A stretch of DNA of 64,000 nt from Pseudomonadota bacterium (GTDB lineage Bacteria; Pseudomonadota; Gammaproteobacteria; Burkholderiales; Thiobacillaceae), in assembly GCA_030684775.1 (NCBI GenBank), contig JAUXXW010000083.1:1-64000 (forward strand), read 5' to 3'. Under the pieces are notes generated by a model. It did not search any database. It had not been told where the DNA came from and saw only the letters and a list, made by a program, of their open reading frames with translations. Made by a program: the position numbers and the translations under genes. Within the stretch, counting starts at the first letter, position 1. Every line of letters starts with the position of its first letter. Positions 40,650 through 61,790 of the stretch are shown in pieces.

Positions 40650-40673
40650 TCCGGTGATGCTCGGTAACTTGGT

Positions 40674-40699
40674 CCGTGTGAGTCTACGGACTCACACGG
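40674..40699 (+). other. Perfect 11-bp hairpin with cUACGg tetraloop
   Basis: CCGTGTGAGTC-TACG-GACTCACACGG between flagellin and the next ORF. Confidence 0.85.
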
Positions 40700-40711
40700 G
40701 AGGAGGGTGAA

Positions 40712-41488: not shown

Positions 41489-41505
41489 CGGAGTGGTAAG
41501 GCAAA

Positions 41506-41904: not shown

Positions 41905-42262
41905 TGCCTACCGCAGCGTGGAAAAAGCCACGTTGTCGCAACGCGATCTGGAGGCGACCGTGTTGACCAAGGCGGCCCTGCAATTGCAGTCGCTCAGGGA
42001 TAACTGGACGCGCGAGAACCACGACGCGCAACTCGAAGATGCGCTCAGTTACAACCAGCGGGTCTGGTCCTTCTTCCAGGCCGAATTGTCGGTTGACGAA
42101 AATCCCTTGCCCGAGGAAATCAGGCGCAATCTGTTAGCCCTCAGTTTTTTCGTGGATCGCCGTTCCTTCGACATGCTGGCCTACCCGGCCCCCGAGAAGC
42201 TCGATGTTCTCATCAGCATCAACAACAACGTCGCGGCGGGATTGCGCGGTGATGCCGGCTGA
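41885..42262 (+). CDS. flaF: Flagellar biosynthesis regulator FlaF
   Basis: LDAYRSVEKATLSQRDLEATVLTKAALQLQ...ALSYNQRVWSFFQAEL. Confidence 0.88.
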   Translation: MPANPLDAYRSVEKATLSQRDLEATVLTKAALQLQSLRDNWTRENHDAQLEDALSYNQRVWSFFQAELSVDENPLPEEIRRNLLALSFFVDRRSFDMLAYPAPEKLDVLISINNNVAAGLRGDAG

Positions 42263-42267
42263 GGTAA

Positions 42268-44467
<2,200 letters not shown>

Positions 44468-44471
<4 letters not shown>

Positions 44472-45169
44472 AGCTCTGCGTGATTCCCGCGCGTGGCGGC
44501 AGCAAGCGCATCCCGCGCAAGAACATCCGCCTGTTCGCCGGCCGTCCCATCATCGCCTGGTCGATTCAGGCCGCGCTGGAAACCGGTCTGTTCGACCGCG
44601 TGATGGTGTCCACCGATGACGAGGAGATCGCCGAGGTGGCGCGCGCCCACGGCGCCGAAATCCCCTTCCTGCGTCCCCGCGGGCTGGCCGACGACCACAC
44701 CGGCACCAACGCCGTGGCGAAACAGGCGATCCGCTGGCATGGCGAGCAAGGCGTGCCGGTGGACTATGCCTGTTGCCTGTATGCCACCGCCCCGTTCGTG
44801 CGAGCCGCCGATTTGCACGCGGGGCATGACCGCCTGCTCGACTCCGGCAAATCCTTCGTCTTCTCCGTCACCAGCTTCCCCTTTCCCATCCAGCGCGCGC
44901 TGCGCCTCAACGAACACGGCGAAGTGGAGGCGATGTACCCGGAATACCGCGCCTCCCGCTCGCAAGACCTGGAGCCGGCCTGGCACGACGCCGGCCAGTT
45001 CTACTGGGGCCGGGCGGCGGCCTTTATGAACGACGAAATCCTGTTCTCGCCGGCCTCCCTGCCGCTCATCCTGCCGCGCCATCGGGTGCAGGACATCGAC
45101 AGCGAGGAAGACTGGCGGCGCGCGGAGTTGATGCACCAGGTGTTGTTGCTGTCGGAAAATGTAGGGTGA
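44468..45169 (+). CDS. pseF: Pseudaminic acid cytidylyltransferase
   Basis: KLCVIPARGGSKRIPRKNIRLFAGRPIIAWSI. Confidence 0.94.
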
Positions 45170-45272
45170 TTTGTGAGGCCACAAAGGCGCCAGCGGGGAG
45201 TCAACTGACTCATCATGAATTACACTTCCGATGTAACACGTGTACACATATAACGGGTTTTGAGGATAAAAC

Positions 45273-45542
45273 ATGTCAACTCATCAAGTTTCCGTGCGTG
45301 ATCTGAGAAGCCGGCTATCCGACTGCCTTCATGCAGTCGCTGCGGGTGAGACGCTGCTGATTACATCGCGCAATCGCCCGGTAGCCCGTTTGCTGGCTGT
45401 TCAGGCAAGCCCGGAAGGGCTGCCCGATATACCTGGAGTGGCCTGGTCAACCGCGTCCCCGCAGGTGAGCCGGCCGGTTGCGGAATGTCCGGCCATCACC
45501 GGTGAAACATTGGCAGATTGGGTGATTGCCAACCGTCGCTAA
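45273..45542 (+). CDS. Phd/YefM-family antitoxin
   Basis: HQVSVRDLRSRLSDCLHAVAAGETLLITSRNRPVARLLAV. Confidence 0.85.
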   Translation: MSTHQVSVRDLRSRLSDCLHAVAAGETLLITSRNRPVARLLAVQASPEGLPDIPGVAWSTASPQVSRPVAECPAITGETLADWVIANRR

Positions 45543-45702
45543 GGGCCTGTTCATGAATAACTCGAACATTCCGGCTGCACTGGTGGGCGCACTGCTGCGT
45601 TGCCGGGCGCTTGCATGGAATGGCCAAGCGGCGCGACCGGCGCCTTGCATTGCATCCCACCAGCACACCCGTAACTGTCCAATTTATCCATGAACAGGCC
45701 CC
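45543..45702. mobile_element. MITE-like element with terminal inverted repeats, ~160 bp
   Basis: GGGCCTGTTCATGAATAA ... TTATCCATGAACAGGCCCC; no ORF. Confidence 0.7.
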
Positions 45703-45715
45703 AAGGAATGAGTGA

Positions 45716-46165
45716 ATGTCTGCGCCGATCTGCTATTTCGACACTTCTGCTCTGGTCAAACTGTACGTTTTTGAAGCGGGCAGTAGCGAGATTGCCGCGT
45801 TGTTTGGCAGTTCAGAACGATGCGCATGCCATGAAATCGCCTATGTGGAAACACGCGCGGCCCTGGCCAGTGCGTTGCGCGGTGGGCGTCTGGATAGCGT
45901 CGCCCACGCCGCTTGCGTCAGCCGTTTCGTTTCTGACTGGCAGACTTCCATTTCCTATGTGAGAACTGACCCGGACCTGTTGCTCCGGGCTGCGGAGTTG
46001 GCGGAAGGCTTTGCCTTGCGGGGCTACGATGCCATGCATCTGGCCAGCGCAGATCGTTTGCTTACCGTTTTACCTGCAACCTTGTTCGTGAGTTTCGATC
46101 AGGCGTTGAATCGGGCAGCCAAGCTACTCGGATTTACCTTGCCGCCCTTTGTGCCCCTCGCCTGA
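45716..46165 (+). CDS. PIN-domain VapC-like toxin
   Basis: ICYFDTSALVKLYVFEAGS; LRGYDAMHLASADRL. Confidence 0.88.
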   Translation: MSAPICYFDTSALVKLYVFEAGSSEIAALFGSSERCACHEIAYVETRAALASALRGGRLDSVAHAACVSRFVSDWQTSISYVRTDPDLLLRAAELAEGFALRGYDAMHLASADRLLTVLPATLFVSFDQALNRAAKLLGFTLPPFVPLA

Positions 46166-46185
46166 TGCCGGTGAGCCTTACGAAC

Positions 46186-47202
46186 ATGAAAATCGCCTTC
46201 CGTGCCGATGCCTCCGTCCAGATTGGTGCCGGCCATGTCATGCGCTGCCTGACCCTGGCCGATGCTTTGCTGGCGGCAGGCGCCCGGACGCGATTCCTCT
46301 GCCGGAAACTGCCGGGACATCTGGGCGAGCTGATCCAGGCGCGCGGGCATGGCCTCGACTGGCTCGCGGATTCTGGGGTGGATGCCGCCGACAGCGCGGC
46401 GGCGCTCGCCCACGAGGCGCCTTGGGACTGGCTGGTGGTGGATCATTACGACCTCGCCTCGGATTGGGAAACGGCGCGGCGTGGCCTGGCAAGAAACATC
46501 CTGGCCATCGACGACCAGGCGGATCGCCCTCACGACTGCGACCTGTTGCTCGACCAGAACCTGCAAACCGAAAATCGCTATGACGGCCTGCTTCCGAGTG
46601 CCTGCCGCGCGCTCATCGGCCCGCGTTATGCCTTGCTGCGTCCCGAATTCCAGCGTCTCCGCCTGGTGGCGAAACCCGACGCGGCGGGGGCCACGGATCT
46701 GCTGATCTGTTTCGGCGGCAGCGATCCACTCGATCTGACCGGCTTGACCCTCGATGCCCTAGATGGCCTGGGCCGTACCGGACTGCGCGTCACCGCCGTG
46801 GTGGGGCAGGGCTACCCCCATCGCGAACGGCTGCGGGTACGCTGCGCCGGCCGGCCCGGCACGCAATTCCATTGCCAGGCCGACAACATGGCGGAATTGA
46901 TGGCGCGCGCCGATCTGGCGGTCGGGGCTTCCGGCGGGGTGACCTGGGAGCGCGCCTGCCTGGGGTTGCCGGCCGTGGTCGTCAGCTTCGCCGAGAACCA
47001 GCGTCCCATCGCCCGCGCCGCCGAGGCGGCGGGCATGCTGGTCTGGCTCGGGGACGCGGCGGAAATCAACGCGGCACGCCTGGGCGAAGCCATCGCCGCG
47101 CTGCTCGACGCGCCCGCGCAACGCCAGGCCATGCGCCGGGCCTGCCTGGAGCAGGTCGATGGCGCGGGTTGCGGCCGGGTGATGGAGGCCATGTCGGCAT
47201 GA
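46186..47202 (+). CDS. pseG: UDP-2,4-diacetamido-2,4,6-trideoxy-beta-L-altropyranose hydrolase
   Basis: IAFRADASVQIGAGHVMRCLTLADAL; GASGGVTWERACLGLPAVVV. Confidence 0.92.
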   Translation: MKIAFRADASVQIGAGHVMRCLTLADALLAAGARTRFLCRKLPGHLGELIQARGHGLDWLADSGVDAADSAAALAHEAPWDWLVVDHYDLASDWETARRGLARNILAIDDQADRPHDCDLLLDQNLQTENRYDGLLPSACRALIGPRYALLRPEFQRLRLVAKPDAAGATDLLICFGGSDPLDLTGLTLDALDGLGRTGLRVTAVVGQGYPHRERLRVRCAGRPGTQFHCQADNMAELMARADLAVGASGGVTWERACLGLPAVVVSFAENQRPIARAAEAAGMLVWLGDAAEINAARLGEAIAALLDAPAQRQAMRRACLEQVDGAGCGRVMEAMSA

Positions 47203-47846
47203 GAATCTCCGTGCTTTGCTCCGACCATAACCACCCCATCCACCCCCTTCTCGTGCGCTGGTGTGAAGCGCTACGCCCCGCGCATACGGTGGAACTGGCG
47301 TATCGCAAGGCCGAGTTGAGCGGTGGCGATCTGCTGTTCCTGATTTCCTGCCAGGAAATCATCGATGCCGATACGCGCGCGCGTTACCGCGCCAGTCTGG
47401 TCATCCATGCCAGCGACCTGCCGCTGGGGCGCGGCTGGTCGCCGCTGGTCTGGCAGTTGCTGGAAGGCCGCGACGACATCGTCGTCACGTTGCTGGAAGC
47501 CGTGGACGAGGTGGACGCCGGCGCCATCTGGCACCAGGAACAACTGCATTTCGCCGGCCATGAACTGGTGGACGAGATCAACGCCGCGTTGTTCGATGCC
47601 GAGTTGGCCCTCATGGATTACGCCGTCGCCAACCTGGAAACTATCCGGCCCCGGCCACAGACTGGCGCGCCCAGCTACTACCGCAGGCGTATGCCGGAAG
47701 ACAGCCGGATCGACCCGCGACGCTCCCTCGCGGATCAATTCAACCTGCTGCGGGTGGCGGATGCGGCGAGGTATCCCGCATTCTTCGATCACCTCGGGCA
47801 GCGTTACGAGATCATCTTGAGAAAAGCCGAATCCCATGAGCCATGA
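47199..47846 (+). CDS. Formyltransferase family protein (methionyl-tRNA formyltransferase-like)
   Basis: LVIHASDLPLGRGWSPLVWQLLEGRDDIVVTLLEAVDEVDAGAIWHQ. Confidence 0.8.
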   Translation: MRISVLCSDHNHPIHPLLVRWCEALRPAHTVELAYRKAELSGGDLLFLISCQEIIDADTRARYRASLVIHASDLPLGRGWSPLVWQLLEGRDDIVVTLLEAVDEVDAGAIWHQEQLHFAGHELVDEINAALFDAELALMDYAVANLETIRPRPQTGAPSYYRRRMPEDSRIDPRRSLADQFNLLRVADAARYPAFFDHLGQRYEIILRKAESHEP

Positions 47847-48885
47847 GATCGCCATCGCTGGCCGCGCCATCGGCCGCGAGCAGCCCCCCTTCCTCATCGC
47901 CGAAATGTCCGGCAACCACAATCAGTCGCTGGCGCGGGCGCTGGAAATCGTCGAAGCGGCGGCGCGCGCGGGCGCCCATGCCCTGAAGATCCAGACCTAT
48001 ACCGCCGACACCATGACCCTCGATCTGGATGAAGGCGAATTCCATATCGAACATCCGCTCTGGGGCGGGCAGTCGCTGCACCAGCTCTACCAGCAGGCCT
48101 ATACCCCCTGGGAATGGCACCAGCCGATTTTCGAACGGGCGCGCGAACTGGGCATGATCGCCTTCTCCACCCCGTTCGATGAAACCGCCGTCGATTTCCT
48201 GGAAGGGCTGGAGGTTCCCGCCTACAAGATCGCCTCGTTCGAGAACAGCGACCTGCCGCTGATCCGCAAGGTGGCCGCCACCGGCAAGCCGATGATCATT
48301 TCCACCGGTATGGCCACGGTGGCGGAACTGGACGAGAGCGTGCGCGTTGCCCGCGCGGCCGGTTGCCGCGACCTGGTGCTGTTGAAATGCACCAGCACCT
48401 ACCCTGCCACGCCGGAGAACTCCAACCTGCTCACCCTGCCGCACCTGCGCGACCTGTTTGCCTGCGTGGTGGGCCTGTCCGACCACACCATGGGCATCGG
48501 CGTCAGCGTCGCCGGCGTCGCTCTGGGCGCCACGGTGATCGAAAAGCACTTCACCCTGCGCCGCGCCGATGGCGGCGTCGATGCCACTTTCTCGCTGGAA
48601 CCGGAGGAGTTCGCGCAACTCCGCGTGGAAACCGAACGCGCCTGGCAGGCCCTGGGGCGGGTGCGCTACGGCCCCAGCGAGGCGGAACGGCCCTCCATCA
48701 TCTTCCGCCGCTCGCTCTATGTGGTGCGCGACATGCGCGCGGGCGAGGCGTTCAGCCGCGACAATCTGCGCGCCATCCGCCCGGGCCTGGGTCTACCGCC
48801 CGGAGAACTGGATACGCTGTTGGGCAAGCGGGTGGCGCGCGACGTGAAACGCGGCACGCCGGCATCCTGGGAGCTACTGGGTTAA
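47836..48885 (+). CDS. pseI: Pseudaminic acid synthase
   Basis: PFLIAEMSGNHNQSLARALEIVEAAARAGAHALKIQTYTADTMTLD. Confidence 0.95.
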   Translation: MSHEIAIAGRAIGREQPPFLIAEMSGNHNQSLARALEIVEAAARAGAHALKIQTYTADTMTLDLDEGEFHIEHPLWGGQSLHQLYQQAYTPWEWHQPIFERARELGMIAFSTPFDETAVDFLEGLEVPAYKIASFENSDLPLIRKVAATGKPMIISTGMATVAELDESVRVARAAGCRDLVLLKCTSTYPATPENSNLLTLPHLRDLFACVVGLSDHTMGIGVSVAGVALGATVIEKHFTLRRADGGVDATFSLEPEEFAQLRVETERAWQALGRVRYGPSEAERPSIIFRRSLYVVRDMRAGEAFSRDNLRAIRPGLGLPPGELDTLLGKRVARDVKRGTPASWELLG

Positions 48886-48933: not shown

Positions 48934-50016
48934 ATGACAATCACCAGCGAGGAGACCATGCACTGTCCGAAAATACTGGAGTGCACCCTGCGCGACGGCA
49001 GCTATGCCATCGACTTCCGGTTCACTGTCGCGGATACCGAGTCCATCGGCGGCGCCCTGGGTCAGGCCGGGTTTCCTTATATAGAGGTGGGCCACGGTAT
49101 TGGCCTTGGCGCCTCCGAACAGGGTCGCAACGTTGCCGCCGCCACCGATCTGGAGTACATGCGGGCGGCGGCACGCTCTATCCAGAAGGGCAAGTGGGGC
49201 ATGTTCTGCATCCCCGGCATCGCCAATCTCGATCATGTGCGCCTGGCCGCCGACCAGGGTATGGATTTCATCCGCATAGGCAGCAACGTCACCGAGATCG
49301 ACAGTTCCGCGCCCTACATCGCCTTGGCGCGGGAGCATGGCATGGAGGTCTATGCCAATTTCATGAAGTCTTACGCCCTGGCGCCGGAAGCGTTTGGCCG
49401 GCTGGTGGCGCGTTCCGCCGGTTTCGGCGCCGGCATGGTCTATCTGGTCGACTCCGCCGGCGGCATGCTGCCCGGCGAGGTGCGCCGCTATCTTCAGGCT
49501 GCCCGCGCCGAGGCGCCCGGCGTGGCCCTGGGTTTCCACGGACACAACAATCTAGGTCTGGCGGTCGCCAATTCGCTGGTCTGCGCGGAGGAGGGCGTGG
49601 CGATGGTGGATACCTCACTGCAAGGTTTCGGCCGCAGCGCCGGCAACACCCCCACAGAGCAGTTTCTCAGCGTTCTGGCGCGCGCTGGCTGTGAACTCGC
49701 GATCGATCCCATAGAGGCCATGCACCTGGGCGAAACGCTCGTTCGTCCGCTGATTGAGCGGCGCGGCCTGAGTTCGCTCGACATCGCCGCCGGCCAGGCC
49801 CAGTTCCACTCCAGTTATATGCCGGCGGTTCTGAGCGCGGCCAAACGGCATCGCATCGACCCGCGCGCCCTCATCATCGAACTGTGCCGGCACGACAAGA
49901 TCAACGCGCCGGACGACCTGCTGGAACGTCTCGCCGCCGACCTGGAAGATCGCCATGTCGCCACGCGCGCGCTGCCCTGGGGTGCCTACTACGGCGAGGA
50001 ACAGAGCCGCACATGA
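48934..50016 (+). CDS. DRE-TIM (HMGL-like) aldolase/acyltransferase family protein
   Basis: ILECTLRDGSYAIDFRF; FHGHNNLGLAVANSL. Confidence 0.85.
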   Translation: MTITSEETMHCPKILECTLRDGSYAIDFRFTVADTESIGGALGQAGFPYIEVGHGIGLGASEQGRNVAAATDLEYMRAAARSIQKGKWGMFCIPGIANLDHVRLAADQGMDFIRIGSNVTEIDSSAPYIALAREHGMEVYANFMKSYALAPEAFGRLVARSAGFGAGMVYLVDSAGGMLPGEVRRYLQAARAEAPGVALGFHGHNNLGLAVANSLVCAEEGVAMVDTSLQGFGRSAGNTPTEQFLSVLARAGCELAIDPIEAMHLGETLVRPLIERRGLSSLDIAAGQAQFHSSYMPAVLSAAKRHRIDPRALIIELCRHDKINAPDDLLERLAADLEDRHVATRALPWGAYYGEEQSRT

Positions 50017-51434
50017 GCGCCAGCGGGCAACTCAACCGGATATTCGCCGCGCGCTGGCGGGAGGCGGCCTTACGCTGCGACCAGCGCGGTTTTACCTATG
50101 GCGAACTGTATGGTCAGGCGGCGGGTATGGCTGCCTGGATATCGGCGCAAGGCTGCCACGCCGGAGACAGCGTGGCTTTGCGTCTGCCCAATGGCTGGCC
50201 GTTCGCGGTGGCTTATCTAGCCTGCCTGCTGGGCCGGTACCGCATCATCCCGGTCAACCCGGAACTCAATCCCGACGACCAGACTTACCTCCTCGAACGT
50301 ACACAACCGCGCATCGTGCTGGAAGATGCCGATTTCCTGGCTGGGCTGCCGGCACAGCCAAGCTCGCGACCGGCTTTCGACTACCCGGTCGGCGCGGTGG
50401 CGGCGGTGTTTTTCACCTCCGGTACCACCGGGCGTCCGAAAGGCGTCTGCCATACCCTGGATGCGCTGGTCGGCAACGTCACCGCCTTCAACGAAAGTCT
50501 GGGGCTGGGCAACGACACTCGGCTCTACCACGTCCTGCCGATGGCCTACATGGCCGGTTTTCTCAATACCCTGCTGGGGCCCTGGCTGGCCGGCGGCACG
50601 GTACTGCTGGGGCCGCGTTTTCGTCCCGCCGACGCGCTGCTTTTCTGGAAGAGGCCGCTGGACTGGAACGCCAATGCCATCTGGCTTACTCCCACCCTGG
50701 CCACCATCCTGGCGCGCATGAACCGCGATCCTGAAATCGCCCGCCGGGTAGGCGCCAGCCTGCGCCATGTGTTTTGCGGCACGGCGCCTCTGCCGGAAGC
50801 CACGCGCCGGGCGTTCCGTGATGCCTTCGGCTGTGTCCCGCAAGAGAGCTATGGCATGAGCGAAGTGCTGCTGGTGGCCGCGCAGACCCGCAAAGAAGCG
50901 GAAAAGGAAACCGGGGTCGGCCGCCTGCTGCCGGGCGTGACCGCCTCCTTTCGTGAAGCCCCTGAAATGAATGCGGAAGAACTGGTGATCCACACGCCCT
51001 GGGCACTGACAGGCTATCTGATGGAACAGGGCGAAGGTTCGCCCTTGCTGGAGGATGGTGGCATGCCCAGCGGCGACCTGGGTGAACTGGTTGAAGGCCA
51101 TCTCGCCATCACCGGCCGTTTGAAAGACCTCATCATCCGCGGCGGCCTCAATGTTTCGCCGTTGGCGCTGGAAGACGTGCTGCTACGCGAGCCCGGCCTG
51201 CTGGAAGTGGCGGTGGTCGGGCTGCCACACGATTTCTGGGGTGAGACCATCGCCGCCTGTCTGGTGGCGGATGGCGATGTCGATACCGCCACCCTGCAAA
51301 CTGCCTTGCAGGCGCGTTGCGCGCGCGAACTCGGCGAGGGTATGCGGCCTGATCGATATGTCTGGCTGGATGCCCTGCCGCGCGCCAGTACCGGCAAGAT
51401 CCAGAAGTATCTGCTGCGGGAGCAATTGGCGTGA
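50013..51434 (+). CDS. AMP-dependent acyl-CoA/ACP synthetase
   Basis: AVFFTSGTTGRPKGVCHT; SYGMSEVLL; GRLKDLIIRGGLNVSPLALEDVL; ASTGKIQKYLLR. Confidence 0.93.
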   Translation: MSASGQLNRIFAARWREAALRCDQRGFTYGELYGQAAGMAAWISAQGCHAGDSVALRLPNGWPFAVAYLACLLGRYRIIPVNPELNPDDQTYLLERTQPRIVLEDADFLAGLPAQPSSRPAFDYPVGAVAAVFFTSGTTGRPKGVCHTLDALVGNVTAFNESLGLGNDTRLYHVLPMAYMAGFLNTLLGPWLAGGTVLLGPRFRPADALLFWKRPLDWNANAIWLTPTLATILARMNRDPEIARRVGASLRHVFCGTAPLPEATRRAFRDAFGCVPQESYGMSEVLLVAAQTRKEAEKETGVGRLLPGVTASFREAPEMNAEELVIHTPWALTGYLMEQGEGSPLLEDGGMPSGDLGELVEGHLAITGRLKDLIIRGGLNVSPLALEDVLLREPGLLEVAVVGLPHDFWGETIAACLVADGDVDTATLQTALQARCARELGEGMRPDRYVWLDALPRASTGKIQKYLLREQLA

Positions 51435-52054
51435 TCCTCGGATTCGCCCACTTGGCCATCAATTGCGGCGACCTCGCACAGGCCGAAGCCGAATGGCGGG
51501 CGCTTGGCTATGCGCGCGGCGCGCTGCATCAAGGGGTTCCCAATCACCCCGCCAAGCGCGCCTTCAGCAGCCACTACCAGCCCGAACACGATCTGCTGCT
51601 GCTCAACGGCCCCGGCCTGTGGCCGCTGGAACTCACCTGCCATGGGCCAACCCAGGGGGAAAACCGGCAACTGGCCTGGACGCGGGAAGCCATCACCCTG
51701 ACCCTGGCCGACCCCGAGCCGATGCGGCGCTTGCTGATCGATGGACTAGGCTTTCGCGCGAGCGACAACGGTGTCCTGGCCCTGGACTGTCGCCTGCCAA
51801 CCTGGTCCTGCCGATTGCATCCGAGGACAGGCGAGAGCGAGCCGGTGCGGCTCGATGCCGCCGGCCCCACCTGTCTGGCCTTTTACTGCAACCGCGTCGA
51901 AGAGGACGCCCAACGTCTCCTTGGCCTGGGCGCCTCCGACTACAGCGGCGTTTTTGATCTCACCCTGGGCGAGCGCGCCATGAGTATCGCCATGCTGCGC
52001 GCGCCCGGCGGCCCCTTGTTGGAACTTATCAGCCCGAGGACTCAAACCCCATGA
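51431..52054 (+). CDS. Glyoxalase/VOC-like protein
   Basis: GFAHLAINCGDLAQAEAEWRALGY; C-terminal second half CLAFYCNRVEEDAQRLLGLGA; GTG start overlapping upstream stop. Confidence 0.65.
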   Translation: MILGFAHLAINCGDLAQAEAEWRALGYARGALHQGVPNHPAKRAFSSHYQPEHDLLLLNGPGLWPLELTCHGPTQGENRQLAWTREAITLTLADPEPMRRLLIDGLGFRASDNGVLALDCRLPTWSCRLHPRTGESEPVRLDAAGPTCLAFYCNRVEEDAQRLLGLGASDYSGVFDLTLGERAMSIAMLRAPGGPLLELISPRTQTP

Positions 52055-52716
52055 CCCAGCGCATCGTCGATCTCACCATGCACCTCGAAGAAGGCATGCA
52101 GACCTTCCCGACCCACTGGCACCCCTTTGTGGAAATCACCCAACTCGGTCGTCTTGGTCTGGAACATCGGGAGACCCGGAAATTGGTGCTGGGTACCCAC
52201 ACCGGCACCCACATCGACGCCCCGCGCCATTTCATTCCCGGCGGCATCACGGTCGACCAGATTCCCCTGGAGCAACTGGTCGGCCCGGCTTCGGTGCTCG
52301 ATCTCACCGCCTTCGGTCCGGGCGCGGAAGTCGGTGTCGACGATCTCGCGCGCGCGCTCGGCGAACGTTCGGCGACGCGCGTGCTGATGCGCTTCGACTG
52401 GGATCGCACCCTGGGCACGATGGGCTACTACAACGATTCCCCTTACCTCTCCGAGGAGGCCGCGCAATGGCTGGTCGACCACGGTTGCCGCCTGCTCGGC
52501 ATGGATACCGCCATGCCGGACAACCCGAAGAACGGCCGCGGCTGCGCCAAGGATTCACCCAACCACAAGATACTGTTGGGCAATGGCGTCATCCTGCTGG
52601 AATACATGGTCAACCTGGCCGCTCTCGATCAGGACGTGGTGCAATTGGTGGTCGCGCCGCTCAAGGTGCGCGACGGCGACGGCGCCCCGGTGCGCGCCTT
52701 CGCCATCCTGGAGTGA
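52051..52716 (+). CDS. Cyclase family protein (kynurenine formamidase-like)
   Basis: LGTHTGTHIDAPRHFIPGGITVDQIPLEQLVGPASVLDL. Confidence 0.9.
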   Translation: MTQRIVDLTMHLEEGMQTFPTHWHPFVEITQLGRLGLEHRETRKLVLGTHTGTHIDAPRHFIPGGITVDQIPLEQLVGPASVLDLTAFGPGAEVGVDDLARALGERSATRVLMRFDWDRTLGTMGYYNDSPYLSEEAAQWLVDHGCRLLGMDTAMPDNPKNGRGCAKDSPNHKILLGNGVILLEYMVNLAALDQDVVQLVVAPLKVRDGDGAPVRAFAILE

Positions 52717-52720
52717 GCGC

Positions 52721-52960
52721 ATGACTGACCACAGTGCCTGGCTGTTCGACTGGTTCCGGCAACGCGCGGCGCACATCACCCTGGCGCCCGACGACAATTA
52801 TTTCAATGCCGGCGCCATTGACTCTTTTGGCGTGATCGAACTGATCGAAGACATGGAGCGGGCCTTCTCGGTGCGCTTTAGCCAGGACGATTTCCAGGAT
52901 CGCCGCTTCTCCAGCGTGGCCGGCCTGGCGGCCCTGCTGGCCGAGAAAATGGGCGCGTGA
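52721..52960 (+). CDS. Acyl carrier protein
   Basis: 79 aa; NYFNAGAIDSFGVIELIEDMERAFSVRFSQDDF with phosphopantetheine Ser in DSFG. Confidence 0.85.
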   Translation: MTDHSAWLFDWFRQRAAHITLAPDDNYFNAGAIDSFGVIELIEDMERAFSVRFSQDDFQDRRFSSVAGLAALLAEKMGA

Positions 52961-53790
52961 TGCCGCAAACCAGGGCGCACTACACCGCGGCCGACCTCGA
53001 CGCGGCGCTGAATCGCTTGCCGCTGGAACGGGGCGACGTACTGTTTCTGCACAGCAACCTCGGTTTCTTCGGCCGTCCCGAGGGCTGTACCGGCAGCGCG
53101 GATGTTTGCCACCTGTTCTTCGACACCCTGATGCGGCGCCTGGGCGGCAACGGCACCCTGGTGGTGCCCACCTTCACCTATTCCTTTCCGCGCCGCCAGT
53201 TGTTCGACCCGGCCGAGACGGCCTCCGGGATGGGGGCCTTCGCGGAATGGCTGCGCCTGCATCCGGATGCACAGCGTTCCCACGACCCCTGCTATTCGGT
53301 GGCGGCGGTGGGGGCACATGCCGAAACATTGACCGCCCACGCTCCGGAAAACAGCTTCGCCCCGGAGGCGTTCTTCGGACGATTCCTGAATGCGGACGGC
53401 GTGGTGCTCAATCTCAATTTCGATGCCGGCTCCACTTTCCTGCATTACCTGGAACGGCAATTGGGCGTGCCTTACCGCTTCGACAAGACCTTCGAGGGCC
53501 ACATCCGCGAACGCGGCGAAACCCGGCGGGCGAAGAGCACGATTCATGTACGCTATCTGAGCAGCGAGGCCACTGTTCCGGTGTTCGAACCTTTCCACGC
53601 GCTGGCGACCGAGGCTGGCCTGTTCGTGACGGAAAAGCTGGGGCGTGGCCGGCTCGGCTGCATCCGTGCGTCAGATTGCCGGCACCTGCTCACCGAAACC
53701 TTGCCCCGGCGCCCCTGGTTGCTCACCCGCGCCGAAGCCCTTGGCGTCATCCCCGAGTTGATTCCTGAACCCACCTATCAGGCCTTATGA
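52957..53790 (+). CDS. AAC(3)-family N-acyltransferase
   Basis: GDVLFLHSNLGFFGRP; TLVVPTFTYSFPRRQLFDP; RSHDPCYSVAAVG. Confidence 0.88.
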   Translation: MMPQTRAHYTAADLDAALNRLPLERGDVLFLHSNLGFFGRPEGCTGSADVCHLFFDTLMRRLGGNGTLVVPTFTYSFPRRQLFDPAETASGMGAFAEWLRLHPDAQRSHDPCYSVAAVGAHAETLTAHAPENSFAPEAFFGRFLNADGVVLNLNFDAGSTFLHYLERQLGVPYRFDKTFEGHIRERGETRRAKSTIHVRYLSSEATVPVFEPFHALATEAGLFVTEKLGRGRLGCIRASDCRHLLTETLPRRPWLLTRAEALGVIPELIPEPTYQAL

Positions 53791-54491
53791 ATCCAACTGA
53801 CTACCAGGCCGGCAACCAGTGGGCTGGCCACTTCGCCAGCCAGTCTCTGGCTTATCCCGCGGAGTATGTGATTCGCATCTTCCGCGGCAGCTACCCCAAC
53901 CTGACCATGCCCAAGCCGCAGCCGGGGCAATCGGTGCTGGATGTCGGTTGTGGTGATGGTCGTCATCTGCCGTTCTTCCAACGCCTTGGCCTGGAGGCGC
54001 ACGGCGTCGAGATCGCCGTGCCCATCATCGAACAATTACGCGAGCGCCTGGCGCCGCTGGGCATCGAGGCGAACCGGTTGCATGTCGGCAGTTGCTCGTC
54101 GCTCCCCTTCGCCGATGCCAGCTTCGACCATGTGATGGCCTGGAATTCCGCCTATTACATGTCGCGCGACGGTGCCGACTTCGCCGCCCACGCGGCGGAA
54201 CTCACCCGCGTGCTACGCCCCGGTGGCTGGCTGGTCGTCTCGGTGCCCAAGCCGAGCGCCTTCATCTTCGCCGGCAGCGAAGCCGCCCCGACACCGGGTT
54301 GCCGCATCGTGCGCCAGGACCCGTTCGGAATCCGCAACGGCGAAATGTTGCGCGTGTTCCAGGATGGCGCCGAACTGGCCGCCGCCTTCGAGGCCGATTG
54401 CGACACCTTCTGCCACGGCGACATTCACGACGACTGTTTTGGCTTTGCTTATCACTGGTTTCTCCTGGTCGCGCGCAAGGCGGCCGCATGA
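53787..54491 (+). CDS. Class I SAM-dependent methyltransferase
   Basis: QSVLDVGCGDGRHLPFFQRLGLEAHGVEIAV. Confidence 0.88.
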   Translation: MNPTDYQAGNQWAGHFASQSLAYPAEYVIRIFRGSYPNLTMPKPQPGQSVLDVGCGDGRHLPFFQRLGLEAHGVEIAVPIIEQLRERLAPLGIEANRLHVGSCSSLPFADASFDHVMAWNSAYYMSRDGADFAAHAAELTRVLRPGGWLVVSVPKPSAFIFAGSEAAPTPGCRIVRQDPFGIRNGEMLRVFQDGAELAAAFEADCDTFCHGDIHDDCFGFAYHWFLLVARKAAA

Positions 54492-55813
54492 CGCCAGGCG
54501 AGGCCATGCATGCCCTGGCGCGTCGGCTCTGGCCGCTCAATCGCAGCCTGAGCGGCGACGGTGTGAGGCAGACTCTGGCGATATTGAGCGAATACCTGCC
54601 CGGCTTGCGGGTGCATGAAATCCCCAGCGGCAGCGCCTGTTTCGATTGGACCGTGCCGCGCGAATGGCGGGTGCGCGAAGCCTGGGTGAAGAACGCGGCG
54701 GGCGAGAAGGTGATCGACTTCGCCGCCAACAACCTGCACCTGATGGGCTACTCGACGCCCGTCGACGCGGAAATGCCGCTGGCGGAACTGCAAGCCCACC
54801 TGCATTCGCTGCCGGAGTCGCCGGATGCGATTCCCTACGTCACCTCCTACTACAAGGAACGCTGGGGTTTCTGCGTCAGCCAGCGTCAGCGCGAGTGCTT
54901 GCCGCCCGGCAACTACCGGGCGCATATCGACAGTGAATTGTTCGCCGGCAGTCTGAGCTACGGCGAGCTGCGCATCCCCGGCGAGACGGATCGGGAAATC
55001 CTGCTTTCCACTTACGTCTGCCATCCCTCGATGGCCAACAACGAGTTGTCCGGGCCTTGTGTCGTCACCTGGCTGGCGCGCTGGTTACTGGAGCAACCCA
55101 CGCGTCGTTATGGCTACCGCATCCTGTTCCTGCCCGAGACCATCGGCTCCATCTGCTACCTCTCGCGCCATCTGGAAGAACTCAAGGCGCGCGTGGCAGC
55201 GGGCTTCGTGGTGAGCTGCGTGGGCGACGATCGCGCTTATTCCTATCTGCCTTCGCGCCAGGGCGACAGCCTCGCCGACCGCGTGGCCCTGCATGTGCTG
55301 CGCCATACCGATCCCGCTTTCCAGCGCTACACCTTCCTCGATCGCGGCAGCGACGAGCGGCAGTATTGCAGTCCCGGTGTCGACTTGCCGGTGTGCAGCC
55401 TGATGCGCTCCAAATACGCCACCTATCCCGAGTACCACACTTCGCTGGACGATCTGAATCTGGTCACGCCGGCCGGGCTGGAGGGCGGCTATATGGCGCT
55501 GCGCCGCGCCCTGGAATGCCTGGAACAGGATTGCATCCCGCGCGCGACCACGCCGTGCGAGCCGCAACTGGGCAAGCGCGGCCTCTATCCCACGCTGAGC
55601 ACGCGCGAGTCGGGGCTACAGGCGCGTGACATGATGAATCTGCTCGCCTACGCCGATGGCCATCACAGCCTGTTGGAGATCGCCGAGATCATCCAGGCGC
55701 CGATGTGGACGTTGGTTCCGCTTGCCGGAAAACTGGCCGAGCATGGCCTGCTGGAAATTCGTCGTACCGAAGATAAGGAAAAAGAGAAGGAAAACTCATG
55801 GAAAAAGACCTGA
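54488..55813 (+). CDS. DUF4910 (M28-like aminopeptidase-fold) protein with C-terminal winged-helix-like tail
   Basis: LWPLNRSLSGDGVRQTLAIL; LLSTYVCHPSMANNELSGPCV; YHTSLDDLNLVTPAGL. Confidence 0.82.
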   Translation: MTPGEAMHALARRLWPLNRSLSGDGVRQTLAILSEYLPGLRVHEIPSGSACFDWTVPREWRVREAWVKNAAGEKVIDFAANNLHLMGYSTPVDAEMPLAELQAHLHSLPESPDAIPYVTSYYKERWGFCVSQRQRECLPPGNYRAHIDSELFAGSLSYGELRIPGETDREILLSTYVCHPSMANNELSGPCVVTWLARWLLEQPTRRYGYRILFLPETIGSICYLSRHLEELKARVAAGFVVSCVGDDRAYSYLPSRQGDSLADRVALHVLRHTDPAFQRYTFLDRGSDERQYCSPGVDLPVCSLMRSKYATYPEYHTSLDDLNLVTPAGLEGGYMALRRALECLEQDCIPRATTPCEPQLGKRGLYPTLSTRESGLQARDMMNLLAYADGHHSLLEIAEIIQAPMWTLVPLAGKLAEHGLLEIRRTEDKEKEKENSWKKT

Positions 55814-57024
55814 TCGACTGGAAGACCCATGCCTGGCAGGACCCGAGGATGGCGGCCTGGTATCAGCAGCGCATGGTGGAAAACCGGGGCACCAACCGGC
55901 TGAAAAACCAGGTCGAGGTGGCGTTGTGCGCCCACCACATCGCCGGCAACAAGTTGCTCGATGTCGGTGTCGGCGGTGGTCGCGCCTCTCTGCCGCTGGC
56001 GCGCGCGGGGTTTGATGTGACCGGCGTCGACAGTTCCCAGGCCATGCTCGATCAGACCCGCGCGCAGGCCGGGGAGACCCCCATCCGCTTGGTGCAAGGC
56101 GATCTTGCCGACCTGAAGTTCGCCAACGATGAATTCGACACCGTGATGTCGCTCAACGTGCTGGTGCATTTCCCGCACTGGCAAGAAATCCTGGCCGAGT
56201 GGCAACGCGTGTTGCGACCAAATGGACGCATCGTCTTCGACATCCATTCCCAGGATCACGAAGATGCCGCGTGCGCCGCCAGGGGATTGCCGGCCAGGCC
56301 GCAAGACGAAGACAATTTCGCCGATTACCACTCTCGCATCCACGTCGCCGAACTGGTGGAAACCGCGAATCGGCTCGATCTCGCCGTGGTTGCCGTGATT
56401 CCCTACAACGGCGGCAACGTCAACACTTGGTTGAGCGGCACCCTGGCGGATGGGCCGCGCTTCAATCGCCTTTTGTCCTGGCTGATGAGCGACTCGCACC
56501 TGTACGAATTCGTTCTGTTCATCGAGCAGGAAATCTACGCTCACCTGAGCAGTCGGGTGACCGGCCGTTTCATGGTGGTGCTGGACAAACGCTCCGACCC
56601 GGACGGCAACCAGGCCTGGCTGGAGCACGATACGGCGCTGAATCGGGTACTCGACGGGCCACTCGATTTCGCCAGCCTGGCCGCCCTGGAACCGAGTTTC
56701 GACGCGAACTGGCGCGAGCGACTGAACGCGCATCTGGATTGGCCGCGCAATCGGGTGCTGCTCTACAACCTGCTTTCCGCCTGGGATGCCTTCCCCGCGC
56801 ACCTCGATCTGGCCTCTTTCCTGGATCAACGCCATGTGGATGCCTTGCTGACCTGGCGCCGGCAGGCGATGACCGACGCGGCTACCACTCGCGCCCTGCG
56901 CGATCTGGTGGCGCTACCCGGCTTGAACGGCTGGCTACGGCATCAAGAGGTGCCCTTGGCCGGCGGCCTCGAATATGACCTGACCCGTGCCATGCTGGCC
57001 CGCTACTTTCACGCCTTCGATTGA
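55798..57024 (+). CDS. Class I SAM-dependent methyltransferase, long form
   Basis: NKLLDVGVGGGRASLPLARAGFDVTGVDSSQAML; 408 aa. Confidence 0.87.
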   Translation: MEKDLIDWKTHAWQDPRMAAWYQQRMVENRGTNRLKNQVEVALCAHHIAGNKLLDVGVGGGRASLPLARAGFDVTGVDSSQAMLDQTRAQAGETPIRLVQGDLADLKFANDEFDTVMSLNVLVHFPHWQEILAEWQRVLRPNGRIVFDIHSQDHEDAACAARGLPARPQDEDNFADYHSRIHVAELVETANRLDLAVVAVIPYNGGNVNTWLSGTLADGPRFNRLLSWLMSDSHLYEFVLFIEQEIYAHLSSRVTGRFMVVLDKRSDPDGNQAWLEHDTALNRVLDGPLDFASLAALEPSFDANWRERLNAHLDWPRNRVLLYNLLSAWDAFPAHLDLASFLDQRHVDALLTWRRQAMTDAATTRALRDLVALPGLNGWLRHQEVPLAGGLEYDLTRAMLARYFHAFD

Positions 57025-60000
57025 GTACTCCGATGACACAGCCAGCGATTCTTTATTTTTTCTGGGGCCGAAATAACCACACCCTGCGCCTGTACCTGGA
57101 GGGCAGGCCGCGCGTGGTTCTGGTCGTGGAGGGTGTATGCACCGAGGAACTGAGATTGATGGTCGAGGAGGTCGGCAGCCGGATCGTGACCCTGACTAGC
57201 CTGGTTCCGGAAACGCGCCTGGAATCCTTCCGGCAATCGGCGGCCGCACTGGTGGCGACGTTCGCCACCAGGAAGGCCGAGCCAGAATGGCGCGACCTTC
57301 TGGCCCGCCACGGATTGGAGGCCGATCGTTTCGATCCGCTGCTGGAGGCAGACCTGGAGCGTCACCTGTTCGATTCGATCCATCTGGTGGAAACGCTGGA
57401 TACCGCCCGTGAGCAGTTTCAGATCGAATTGGTGGCGCTCAATGAAGACCTCATGCTGCATGGCCATTGCATCGCCGAATGGGCGCGTGCCCGTGGCGTA
57501 CCCAGTCTGCATCTGGTGCATGGGCTGGCGCTGGGCGCGCCCTACACGGTACATGGCGCCCTGCATTGCGATGCGATGGCGGTGTTCGGCGAACGTGACG
57601 CGGAGGCTTATCGTGGCGTCGGTATTCCCGCGGAACGCATCCACATCACCGGCAACCCGGCCTGGGACATCTACGCCGAACTCAAGTTGAAAAAGGCGGG
57701 TGTCCGCGAGGAGGCATACGGCAAGTACGACCTGAATCCCGAGGCGCCCCTGCTGTTGTTCGGCACCACTTGGGCGGCATCCATGACGGCTTTGTCCAAC
57801 CGCGATGCCCACGACGAAACCCTGGCGATGTTTTTCCGGGGCTGCGTGGAATGGATGAATGCCGGGCATGCCGCCAATATTGTCGTCAAGGATCGTGTCT
57901 CCAATACGGAGCATGGGCGCGAGGGGGCGGATCGTATCGCGCTCGAAGCCGGCCTGAACCCGTCGCAATACGTCTACACCACGGACGACACCAGACTCCT
58001 GGTGACGGCGGCCGATGTGCTGGTGTCGGTGGACTCCAATCTTTCGGTCGAGGCCATGCTGGCGGGAACCCCGGCGATCAACCTGATGACTGAACTCGGG
58101 CTGCGCATGGGCCCGAGTTTCGATGCCGAGTGCGGCATGCTGGAAGCTGGCCCGGGTGAGCTGTCGTTGTTGCTGGATTTCGTGCTGGGCGACGCGGATC
58201 TGCGTGGCGGTTTGATCGAACTGATGTCGCTCAAGGTATCCGGCTACAACTTTGCCGTGGATGGCTCCGCCGCCGAGCGGGTGGCGAACTTGATGCGAGA
58301 GATGGCGCGTGGCGTGGTCGAGTCACGGGTTTCACAGCGCCCGCCGGGCGGCTATGTCTGGGAACAACTCTCGGAACTGGAGGATGCCGACCTCAAGGGC
58401 GCCTACCACGACCACGCGCGCAAGGAACTGCTGCTGCTGCTGGAGCGGCCGCCACGCCGGGTGCTCGATGTCGGTTGTGCCACCGGCGCCACCGGTGAAC
58501 TGATCAAGACCGCGTGGCCCGAGTCGCATGTCACCGGGATCGAACTCAACCGCGCGGCGGCGGCGCGCGCCGAGGAGCGCATCGACAAGGTTTTGGGCGA
58601 GAAACTGGAGGACATCGACTTCGCCGCCGAAGGCATCGCGCCGGGTTCCATCGATACCGTGCTGCTGGCCGATGTGCTGGAACACCTCTACGACCCCTGG
58701 GATGCCCTGCTGCGCATCCGTCCGCTGCTGACCGAGGATGCCCAGGTGCTGGTCAGCCTGCCCAACGCGCGCAACCTCTGGCTGCTCAACGAACTGGCCG
58801 GCGGCCGCTTCCCCTATGCCTCGGAGGGCTTGCTGGACATCACGCATATCCGCTGGTTCACCCGCGCCGAGATGGAAAAGATGCTGCGCGAGACCGGCTA
58901 TCGCGTGGTGAAAAGCAGCCGCACCCCGACGGCGGGCTTGCAGGATCTGACCCGGCCGGCCGGCAGCACCACGGTGGAAACGGAAAAGATCGTCCTCAAG
59001 GATGTGGACGATGAGGAATTCGAGGACCTCAAGGCCTTGCAGATCATGTTTCTGGCGAAGCCGCTCAAGGACGGCGAAGCGGGCGTGTCGCCCCAGGATT
59101 TCTACCACCTCTGGCAACTCGGCCACGCCTACCAGAAGCGCGACGCGCTGTGGATCGCGGAGCGCATGGATGCCCTCTCTCGCCACCCGGTCCATCACCT
59201 CGTGGTGATCGTTCCGGCGGGGGGCGAGGATCGCCTGGCCAATAACATCAAATCGCTCGGCCACCAGTTCTATCAGCACTGGAAGCTGACCGTCGTTTCC
59301 AGCGAAGCCGCGCATCCCGCCCTGGCCGACACTGCATCCATCGCCTGGATACAGGCACCCGCCGAGCAGCATCTGGAGGCGGCCAATCGCACCCTGCTGG
59401 AGACCGAGGCCGACTGGGTAGGCATGTGGGAGGCCGGCGACAAGCTGGCGCCGCATGCCTTGTTCACCTGCGCCGACAAGGCGGCGCGGCATCCGGAATA
59501 TCAGGTGCTGTACAGCGACGAAGACCGGGTGGATGGCGAGGAGGCGCATTCCGCGCCGTTCTTCAAGACCGATTTCAACCTGGAAATGCTGCGCGCGGCA
59601 CCCTTCGCGGTGGGCGGCCTGTTGTTGCTGCGGCACGATCTGTTCACCGCCTTGAACGGCTACGACCTGGAGATGGAGGGCGTGGAGGCCTTTGATCTCA
59701 CCCTGCGCGCCTGGGAGAAAGTGGGCCATGCCGGCATCGGCCACCTCGCCGACGTGCTCTACCACCGTCACGCCGAAGGCGGCCACGGCCACTTGAGCGG
59801 CGAGGAAATCGCCGCCGTCCACCGGCGCGCGCTGGAACGGCATCTGGCGCGTTGCGATCTCGCCGCCCGGGTGGAGGAGGGCGCGCTGCCCGGCACGCTG
59901 CATGTGCGTTATTCGGTGAGCGGCGATCCTCTGGTGTCCATTCTGGTGCCGACGAAAAACCAGGTCGATTTCCTGAAACGCTGCCTCACCTCGCTGATCG

Positions 60001-61790
60001 ACGGCACCGGTTACGCCAACTGCGAAATTCTGGTGCTCGACAACGGCAGCGACGAAGCCGAGGCGGTGGCCTACCTGGCCGAACTGCGGGCGCTGAACTC
60101 GCCGCGCCTCAAGGTGCTGGACTGCGCCGGGCCGTTCAATTTCTCCGCCATGAACAACCGGGGCGCGCGTGAGGCGCAAGGCGAATACCTGGCGCTGCTC
60201 AACAACGACACCGCCGTGCTGCACGAGGAATGGCTGGAAGAGATGCTCGGTATCGCGCAACAGGCGGATGTCGGCGCGGTGGGGGCGAAACTGTTCTATC
60301 CGGACGGGAAAATCCAGCATGCCGGGGTGATTCTGGGCATGAACGACGCCCCGGCGGAGCACCCGTTCATCGGTCTGGAGGCCGATGCAGACGGCTATTT
60401 CGGCCGCCTCAAGCTCACCCAGGAATACTCTGCGGTCACCGCCGCCTGCATGCTGGTGAAGCGCGAGCGCTATCTGGAAGTGGGTGGCCTGGACGAACAG
60501 CGCTTCCAGGTTTCGTTCAACGACGTGGACTTCTGCCAGAGGCTGCGCCACCAGGGCTACCGCAACGTGTTCACGCCGCATGCGCGCCTGCTGCACGAAG
60601 GCTCGGTGAGCCAGTCCGGCGGTGTGGAAACGCGCGCGAAGGAGGCCAAACATGCGCGCTTTCTTGAGGAGCAGAACCGCTTTTATGACACCTGGCGCCA
60701 CGATGTCGCCTTCGACCCGGCATTCAACAGGAATCTGTCCACGCACGGCCGCGATTTCCTCGTGGAAATCGCCCCCGCCCTGGCCTGGGACCCGGAATGG
60801 CGGCCGCGTCCGCGCATCCTCGCGCACCCGGCCGACCGTTTCGGTTGCGGCGAGTACCGCGTCATCGCGCCCATGCGCGCCCTCAATGACGCCGGCCACA
60901 TCATGGGTTGGGAAACCAGCAACTACCTGTCGCAGCCGGAACTGTTCCGGATGGAACCCGACACCATCCTGCTGCAACGCCAGGTGGACCCGCACCAGAT
61001 CGAGTTCATCGAACGCTACATCCGCCACAGCAAGGCGTTCCGTGTCTACGAGATCGACGACCTGATCACCAACATCCCGATCCAGAACATCCGCAAGAAG
61101 CATTTCGTCGAACAGAAAGACCTGCACAAGCGCTTCCGCAAGGGCATCTCCCTGTGCCACCGCTTCATCGTCTCCACCGAGTACCTGGCGGAGCATTACC
61201 GGGGCTATATCGACGACATCGTCGTGGTGCCCAATTACATCGAACGAGGCCGCTGGGGCAATCTGAAGCCGGCCCGCCGGCACGGCGCCAAGCCGCGCGT
61301 GGGCTGGGCCGGCAGCATCACCCACGATGGCGACCTGGCGGTGATTTTCGATGTGGTGAAAGCCACCGCCAAGGAAATCGACTGGGTGTTCCTCGGCATG
61401 TGTCCGGATGAAATCCGCGCCTGTGTCGCGGAGTTCCATCCGGGTGTCGGGCTGGAGGATTACCCCGCCAAGCTGGCCAGTCTGGGTCTCGATCTGGCGG
61501 TTGCGCCGCTCGAAGACGTGCCCTTCAATCACGGCAAGAGCCACCTGCGCCTGCTCGAATACGGCGTGCTCGGCTACCCGGTGGTGTGCAGCGACCTCAC
61601 CCCCTACCGCGGCGACTACCCGGTCACCCGCGTGCCCAACCGCTACAAGAATTGGGTGGAAGCGATTCGCGGCCATGTTGCCGACCGCGACGAACTGGCC
61701 CAACGCGGCGATGCCCTGCGCGATTACATCCGTGCCGAGTGGATGCTGGAAGACCATCTGGACGTCTGGCTGAAGGCGTGGTTGCCATGA
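57021..61790 (+). CDS. 1589-aa multidomain glycosyltransferase: N-terminal capsule-type GT-B-like, methyltransferase, GT2, C-terminal GT-B
   Basis: RVLDVGCATGATGELIKTAWPESHVTGIELN; VSILVPTKNQVDFLKRCLTSLIDGTGYANCEILVLDNGS; C-terminal PRILAHPADRFGCGEYRVIAPMRAL...VGWAGSITHDGDLAVIF. Confidence 0.9.
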   Translation: MSTPMTQPAILYFFWGRNNHTLRLYLEGRPRVVLVVEGVCTEELRLMVEEVGSRIVTLTSLVPETRLESFRQSAAALVATFATRKAEPEWRDLLARHGLEADRFDPLLEADLERHLFDSIHLVETLDTAREQFQIELVALNEDLMLHGHCIAEWARARGVPSLHLVHGLALGAPYTVHGALHCDAMAVFGERDAEAYRGVGIPAERIHITGNPAWDIYAELKLKKAGVREEAYGKYDLNPEAPLLLFGTTWAASMTALSNRDAHDETLAMFFRGCVEWMNAGHAANIVVKDRVSNTEHGREGADRIALEAGLNPSQYVYTTDDTRLLVTAADVLVSVDSNLSVEAMLAGTPAINLMTELGLRMGPSFDAECGMLEAGPGELSLLLDFVLGDADLRGGLIELMSLKVSGYNFAVDGSAAERVANLMREMARGVVESRVSQRPPGGYVWEQLSELEDADLKGAYHDHARKELLLLLERPPRRVLDVGCATGATGELIKTAWPESHVTGIELNRAAAARAEERIDKVLGEKLEDIDFAAEGIAPGSIDTVLLADVLEHLYDPWDALLRIRPLLTEDAQVLVSLPNARNLWLLNELAGGRFPYASEGLLDITHIRWFTRAEMEKMLRETGYRVVKSSRTPTAGLQDLTRPAGSTTVETEKIVLKDVDDEEFEDLKALQIMFLAKPLKDGEAGVSPQDFYHLWQLGHAYQKRDALWIAERMDALSRHPVHHLVVIVPAGGEDRLANNIKSLGHQFYQHWKLTVVSSEAAHPALADTASIAWIQAPAEQHLEAANRTLLETEADWVGMWEAGDKLAPHALFTCADKAARHPEYQVLYSDEDRVDGEEAHSAPFFKTDFNLEMLRAAPFAVGGLLLLRHDLFTALNGYDLEMEGVEAFDLTLRAWEKVGHAGIGHLADVLYHRHAEGGHGHLSGEEIAAVHRRALERHLARCDLAARVEEGALPGTLHVRYSVSGDPLVSILVPTKNQVDFLKRCLTSLIDGTGYANCEILVLDNGSDEAEAVAYLAELRALNSPRLKVLDCAGPFNFSAMNNRGAREAQGEYLALLNNDTAVLHEEWLEEMLGIAQQADVGAVGAKLFYPDGKIQHAGVILGMNDAPAEHPFIGLEADADGYFGRLKLTQEYSAVTAACMLVKRERYLEVGGLDEQRFQVSFNDVDFCQRLRHQGYRNVFTPHARLLHEGSVSQSGGVETRAKEAKHARFLEEQNRFYDTWRHDVAFDPAFNRNLSTHGRDFLVEIAPALAWDPEWRPRPRILAHPADRFGCGEYRVIAPMRALNDAGHIMGWETSNYLSQPELFRMEPDTILLQRQVDPHQIEFIERYIRHSKAFRVYEIDDLITNIPIQNIRKKHFVEQKDLHKRFRKGISLCHRFIVSTEYLAEHYRGYIDDIVVVPNYIERGRWGNLKPARRHGAKPRVGWAGSITHDGDLAVIFDVVKATAKEIDWVFLGMCPDEIRACVAEFHPGVGLEDYPAKLASLGLDLAVAPLEDVPFNHGKSHLRLLEYGVLGYPVVCSDLTPYRGDYPVTRVPNRYKNWVEAIRGHVADRDELAQRGDALRDYIRAEWMLEDHLDVWLKAWLP

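Follow-up and report, generated by a model that had tools for sequence, protein, structure and literature searches.

A candidate N-acyl-exchange cassette with a replaceable acyl module in a flagellar pseudaminic acid locus of a Thiobacillaceae bacterium

The 64,000-nucleotide stretch analyzed here (the window; contig JAUXXW010000083.1 of a Thiobacillaceae bacterium) carries nine consecutive genes at positions 48934-57024, flanked by pseI on the left and a gene for a giant glycosyltransferase (GT) on the right. In order, they encode a DRE-TIM aldolase, an AMP-forming carboxylate ligase, a VOC-like protein, a cyclase-family hydrolase, an acyl carrier protein (ACP), an AAC(3)-fold N-acyltransferase, an S-adenosylmethionine (SAM)-dependent methyltransferase (MT1), a DUF4910 protein, and a second methyltransferase (MT2). 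We propose, with a probability of about two in three, that this cassette is an N-acyl-exchange system of flagellar pseudaminic acid (Pse) with an exchangeable acyl module. The best reading of our analysis makes it a probable variant of the Cj1295/DUF4910-type system of Campylobacter jejuni, supplied by an undescribed acid pathway. This proposal draws on the gene content of the locus, its conserved order, and its association with pse genes. Moreover, a preliminary description had suggested a dedicated cassette for acyl synthesis, ACP loading, and transfer tied to Pse, and this suggestion gains support from the pse linkage, from module replacement in one slot, and from fusions of AAC(3) to FkbH in related loci.

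Gene order and linkage to pse genes

All nine genes lie on the + strand and are intact, each closing with one stop codon, as the preliminary description had read them. Six junctions are exact 4-nt overlaps (ATGA/GTGA) at precisely the positions it gave (50013, 51431, 52051, 52957, 53787, and 54488). At the remaining junctions, 4 nt separate the cyclase and ACP genes, DUF4910 and MT2 overlap by 16 nt, and the giant GT gene starts 8 nt after MT2, so that the run does continue into it. On the 5' side of the cassette are, in order, genes for flagellin, FlbT, FlaF, PseB, PseC, PseF, a PIN-domain protein, PseG, a formyltransferase, and PseI. Curated Pfam cut-offs were passed by eight proteins: the aldolase (HMGL-like), AMP-binding ligase, cyclase, ACP, acyltransferase (Antibiotic_NAT), both methyltransferases, and the DUF4910/DUF2172/HTH_47 protein. 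The family assignments made earlier therefore stand for these eight, but the VOC assignment is weak. The third protein matches Glyoxalase_4 with E = 0.0014, and an orthologue has a glyoxalase hit with E = 2e-4, both below cut-off; a PDB profile search gave it no match, and its AlphaFold model is unreliable (pLDDT 48). Orthologues of this protein are present in four related loci (L012, L013, L037, and L105).

How far does this gene set extend? The comparison covered a genus sample, a Roseobacter-family sample (n = 397), an order sample (n = 398), and a pattern scan of 85,462 species genomes, which yielded only 8 loci. In the genus sample, the aldolase occurs in just three genomes, that of the window, G007, and G016, and the latter two conserve the genes from pseB through the giant GT gene except for the formyltransferase and PIN-domain genes. 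Roseobacter sp. SK209-2-6 keeps the order aldolase-ligase-VOC-cyclase-ACP-AAC(3) at 54-74% identity, with pseB, pseC, pseF, pseG, the formyltransferase gene, pseI, and DUF4910 immediately after it. A second genome of the same family, G789, has these six genes and DUF4910 in the same order (35-63%), and an MT1 orthologue (50%) adjoins the cassette in divergent orientation. G789 encodes PseI elsewhere in its genome, and no pse genes lie within 10 kb of its cassette. Co-occurrence across genomes, put forward earlier as a check, was thus found: the six-gene order recurs in G007, G016, SK209-2-6, and G789, with DUF4910 present each time. Because this order spans two proteobacterial classes at 35-74% identity, recurrence of the gene set is more than chance.

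Looser versions of the cassette also occur. Nitrosomonadaceae and OM43 loci combine pse genes with the aldolase, ligase, cyclase, ACP, and DUF4910, have a different methyltransferase and a different AAC(3), and are without the VOC gene. A Chlorobiaceae contig ends within the aldolase gene, directly 3' of pseI. DUF4910 sits with pse genes in the window (42307-48885), G007, G016, SK209-2-6, L033, and L039. The cassette is rare (2/397 in the Roseobacter family and 2/398 in the order), and its scattered occurrence among proteobacterial classes and Chlorobiota is what horizontal transfer would predict. The acyl module is therefore rare and probably horizontally spread.

Replacement of the acyl module between congeners

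The congeners G010 and G016 provide a natural swap experiment. They are 100% identical in pseG, 97% in pseH, 94% in pseI, 95% in DUF4910, 92% in MT2, and, over the stretch compared, 95% in the GT gene. Between pseI and DUF4910, G016 carries a block of the window type, running from aldolase to MT1. The same interval in G010 encodes a 335-residue protein, a ligase with 28% similarity, a pyridoxal phosphate-dependent aminotransferase, and another methyltransferase, AAC(3), and ACP. The first gene of this alternative module (L029, 15586-16593), which encodes the 335-residue protein, has no Pfam or NCBIfam match. Since the flanks are 92-100% identical while the intervening block is replaced, the aldolase-to-MT1 block appears from these alignments to be an exchangeable acyl module. 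MT1 lies inside the exchanged block, whereas MT2 and the giant GT gene are constant and lie outside it. The earlier view of all nine genes as one cassette thus holds for the genes from aldolase to MT1, which are exchanged together, but not for MT2.

The window differs from G016 and G010 in a second region. It has a different pseG allele (47% identity), and a formyltransferase replaces the PseH-like GNAT; homologues of this formyltransferase occur in pse operons of L030, L037, and L039. Because the acyl block and the pseG/formyltransferase region vary separately, two N-acyl determinants appear to be exchanged independently.

The DUF4910 protein, the acyltransferase, and the acid-supply enzymes

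The DUF4910 protein scores above cut-off against PF16254 (352 bits), PF09940 (129 bits), and PF16221 (91 bits) and is a full-length homologue of CA_C2195 from Clostridium acetobutylicum (PDB 3k9t; E = 1e-104). CA_C2195 is without canonical peptidase residues and binds a single zinc ion via His189, Asp195, and His324, and its authors proposed transacylation or de-acylation of a sugar amide (PMC4000134). This zinc site is a feature of CA_C2195, and it is not established as diagnostic of the Cj1295 system. Both histidine ligands are kept in the window protein, and Asp195 is replaced by Asn, followed by Glu (CHPSMANNE); every member of this NNE type has the Asn. All pse/AAC(3) loci examined have the NNE form, and NDN is kept in dTDP/CDP-sugar loci. 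AAC(3) lies near DUF4910 in 21 of 30 loci with the NNE form vs 0 of 15 with other forms (Fisher p = 4e-6, an optimistic value because the loci are partly interdependent and include some picked for having the cassette). In the phylum sample alone, the association has p = 0.0097.

No characterized pathway with this gene set had been named in the preliminary description. That remains true of the acid supply, but the pathway type has precedents, because DUF4910 has a characterized relative in Cj1295 and because CA_C2195 adjoins N-acetyltransferase and ACP genes. Cj1295 is a DUF2172-type protein encoded beside pse genes (PMC6321876). Without it, C. jejuni cannot make the 5-N-(2,3-di-O-methylglyceroyl)-pseudaminic acid of its flagellin, and the same study suggested that Cj1295 takes the acetyl group off C5 (PMC3068675). 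The N5 acyl of flagellar Pse is thus changed and the product O-methylated, and we predict the same here. The window has the features of this type: a DUF4910-DUF2172-HTH_47 protein, pse genes, and a linked ACP and N-acyltransferase. The acid supply differs, comprising aldolase, AMP ligase, cyclase, and VOC protein rather than a glycerate route, with the Cj1295 side of this comparison taken from publications. The CA_C2195 neighborhood shares the full-length DUF4910 homologue and includes a NeuB-type synthase, an ACP, and aminosugar N-acetyltransferases, one of them HAD-fused (PMC4000134). However, CA_C2195 keeps Asp195 where the window subgroup has Asn then Glu, and no aldolase/cyclase/ligase trio is listed there.

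The AAC(3)-fold protein has the catalytic His and Glu (H..E), which are conserved throughout the eight sequences aligned. Its best score against AAC(3) resistance models is 65 bits, far below the cut-off of 270, and it lies in a sugar locus; we therefore rejected the reading of this protein as an aminoglycoside resistance enzyme. An AAC(3) gene of an Agrobacterium conjugative plasmid (L096, 9974-10627) stands beside pse genes and DUF4910 and is annotated "response to antibiotic"; its context argues for sugar acylation over antibiotic response. Four DUF4910 loci (L081, L093, L095, and L098) encode AAC(3)-FkbH fusion proteins, and L030 has a separate FkbH gene next to AAC(3). The FkbH (HAD-IIIC) motif D.DNT[LVI]W is seen in L030, L081, and L093, and profiles found FkbH in L095 and L098; the motif was not found in the window region. 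FkbH produces glyceryl-ACP (PMC7489565), and its fusion to AAC(3) therefore ties this AAC(3)-fold family to ACP-bound acids. The four fusions, which stand beside NNE-type DUF4910, are likely a glyceryl-transfer version of the system. FkbH/glyceryl-ACP pathways (TIGR01686) resemble the cassette in that a small ACP-bound acid supplies a transferase; they differ in that the window cassette is without FkbH and the AMP ligase is predicted to activate the acid. The L075 locus combines pse genes, ACP, AMP ligase, a FabG-like reductase, AAC(3), and DUF4910, a gene content that points to a further acid-supply module.

What sets the aldolase apart from its catabolic relatives? It passes the subfamily model NF006049 (286 > 229 bits) and falls short of the equivalog TIGR03217 (263 < 286). 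It aligns to DmpG/BphI (PDB 1nvm, 8ih7) along the whole chain, and the metal/enolate residues R20, D21, H202, and H204 (Arg17, Asp18, His200, and His202 of DmpG) are kept in 10/10 clade members. In contrast, the His21/Tyr291 pair of DmpG is reciprocally swapped to Tyr24 and His292 in all ten, while the His/Tyr pair is present in four of four DmpG-like comparators from the same order. The DmpG specificity loop LLLPG reads FCIPG in the window. His20 is the catalytic base of BphI. Tyr290 governs stereochemistry in that enzyme, and Leu87/Leu89 shape the aldehyde pocket (PMC3962088). Since the pair is swapped and the Leu stretch reads FCI, the aldolase likely has an aldehyde or stereochemistry other than acetaldehyde/(4S), and we rejected its assignment as DmpG because of the swapped catalytic pair. 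Unlike DmpG/BphI, it is also without an aldehyde dehydrogenase partner gene: no acylating acetaldehyde dehydrogenase was recognized beside it in the window by profiles or among open reading frames of related loci by inspection. A plasmid search with the aldolase returned mostly catabolic DmpG; the best match, from Pseudoroseomonas cervicalis (41%), was set aside, as it lies near an ATP-grasp gene and a transaminase gene outside any such cassette. Distant relatives in the same order (31-35%) had none of the remaining cassette genes alongside, and the literature search found no paper joining oxovalerate aldolase with O-antigen and glycosylation. As for the other acid-supply proteins, PDB relatives of the cyclase are kynurenine formamidase and isatin hydrolase, and the ACP serine (DSFG) is conserved in every homologue aligned.

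The coordinates of the locus are collected in Table 1; a gene named pseB is annotated in matching context in NZ_CP074394. Flagellin with FlbT and FlaF (39726-42262) lies directly 5' of the pse operon, an arrangement kept in G007 and G016 and, at lower identity, in G110. A PIN-domain (VapC-like) gene and a small upstream open reading frame (45690-46165) are inserted between pseF and pseG; G016 and G010 share it at 97-98% identity, and G007 lacks it.

Table 1. Genes of the pse operon and the acyl cassette in the window
Feature	Position	Strand	Basis or remark
PseB, UDP-GlcNAc 4,6-dehydratase (inverting)	42307..43308	+	homologues 51-96% identical head pse operons of related loci
PseC aminotransferase	43311..44471	+	comparison with related pse loci
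PseF, CMP-pseudaminic acid synthetase	44468..45169	+	comparison with related pse loci
PseG hydrolase	46165..47202	+	comparison with related loci; 47% identity to G016/G010 allele
Formyltransferase in PseH slot, predicted N-formylation of future C7 amine	47199..47846	+	PF00551 31.3 > 26.1
PseI, pseudaminic acid synthase	47836..48885	+	left border of exchangeable block
DRE-TIM aldolase, DmpG/BphI-like, swapped dyad Tyr24/His292	48934..50016	+	NF006049 286 > 229 bits
AMP-forming carboxylate ligase	50013..51434	+	PF00501 and PF13193 above cut-off
Putative VOC (glyoxalase-fold) protein, missing from some cassettes	51431..52054	+	sub-threshold Glyoxalase_4/3
Cyclase-family metal hydrolase	52051..52716	+	PF04199 above cut-off; HTGTHIDAPRH motif intact
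Acyl carrier protein	52721..52960	+	PF00550 above cut-off; conserved DSFG serine
AAC(3)-fold N-acyltransferase	52957..53790	+	PF02522 104 bits; catalytic LHxxE motif kept
SAM methyltransferase MT1, within exchanged module	53787..54491	+	profile and G010/G016 comparison
DUF4910/DUF2172/HTH_47 protein, Cj1295/CA_C2195 type, NNE metal-site variant	54488..55813	+	profile, alignment
SAM methyltransferase MT2, constant, outside exchanged block	55798..57024	+	profile and G010/G016 comparison
Giant glycosyltransferase (1585 residues), internal methyltransferase domain	57033..61790	+	profile; follows DUF4910-MT2 in G007, G016, G010

Proposed pathway, alternatives, and significance

We infer each catalytic step of the following scheme, together with the C5 site, the structure of the acid, and the flagellin target. 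PseB, PseC, the formyltransferase, PseG, PseI, and PseF would make CMP-Pse with acetyl on N5 and formyl on N7. The aldolase, the cyclase-family hydrolase, and, where present, the VOC protein would produce a dedicated carboxylic acid, perhaps a hydroxy- or methoxy-acid, which the AMP ligase would load onto the ACP and MT1 probably O-methylates. DUF4910 would free or activate the C5 amide of Pse, as suggested for Cj1295, and the AAC(3)-fold enzyme would transfer the acyl group from the ACP to the C5 nitrogen. The giant GT and MT2 would then handle the completed sugar on its way to flagellin. We favor C5 as the acylation site, since the pathway has a formyltransferase of its own (47199-47846) that most likely formylates the C7 amine; a C5 site also agrees with C. 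jejuni. If C5 is acylated, its acetyl group must come off first.

Could the acyl group be placed elsewhere? Its target may be a different amino sugar that the giant GT adds to the flagellar glycan. A profile search found several transferase domains in this protein, so the glycan may contain more than one sugar; moreover, the G789 cassette is distant from pse genes, and several AAC(3)-DUF4910 loci show none nearby. We nevertheless consider this destination unlikely, since the window, G007, G016, SK209-2-6, Nitrosomonadaceae, and OM43 have the block within the pse operon or immediately next to it, no other amino-sugar pathway was recognized in pse-linked blocks, G789 still encodes PseI, and the single characterized DUF4910 case acts on Pse (PMC3068675). 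Replacement of the C7 substituent, with AAC(3) competing with the formyltransferase for the UDP-4-amino sugar before PseI, is decidedly improbable. Acylation of free amines is established among AAC(3)-fold enzymes, and the UDP-sugar has a free 4-amine, with no need for de-acylation. However, the window, G016, G010, L030, L037, and L039 all retain a gene for a formyltransferase or a GNAT, the conserved DUF4910 would have no role, and the C. jejuni product carries its modification at N5 (PMC3068675).

It is more improbable still that aldolase, ligase, and cyclase form a catabolic or secondary-metabolite operon adjacent to pse genes by accident. Their family names are catabolic (4-hydroxy-2-oxovalerate aldolase, kynurenine-formamidase-like), and the Rhodospirillaceae case described below has the trio alone. 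Yet the reading frames overlap into AAC(3) and DUF4910, pse linkage is repeated in unrelated taxa, the block is precisely exchanged between constant pse and GT flanks, and the aldolase has no recognized acetaldehyde dehydrogenase partner beside it.

Four points weigh against N-acyl exchange on Pse, the reading we prefer. Acetamide hydrolysis by DUF4910 is uncertain because the protein is without canonical peptidase residues (PMC4000134) and the NNE subgroup is without Asp195. A strain that makes the modified sugar has Cj1296/7 out of frame (PMC3068675, Table 1), and a role of Cj1296-Cj1310 in flagellar glycosylation is excluded in one paper (PMC13317340). Finally, a Rhodospirillaceae metagenome-assembled genome has aldolase, ligase, and cyclase with no DUF4910 anywhere in the assembly and no pse genes nearby.

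Altogether, our analysis connects three questions: the role of DUF4910 (Cj1295), AAC(3)-fold "resistance" genes in surface-sugar loci, and unusual N-acyl groups on flagellar nonulosonic acids. The aminoglycoside-resistance annotation of such AAC(3) genes is probably wrong. Roseobacter sp. SK209-2-6, whose genome is not metagenome-assembled, carries the cassette and is amenable to testing. We suggest tentatively, at somewhat less than even odds, that whole acyl modules swapped beneath a constant DUF4910-based exchange step may diversify flagellar Pse. On this view, the acyl group of the window would be a previously undescribed one, made through a new subfamily of aldolases whose His/Tyr pair is reversed, and NNE-type DUF4910 would be a non-peptidase amide exchanger paired with an AAC(3)-fold acyl-ACP transferase.

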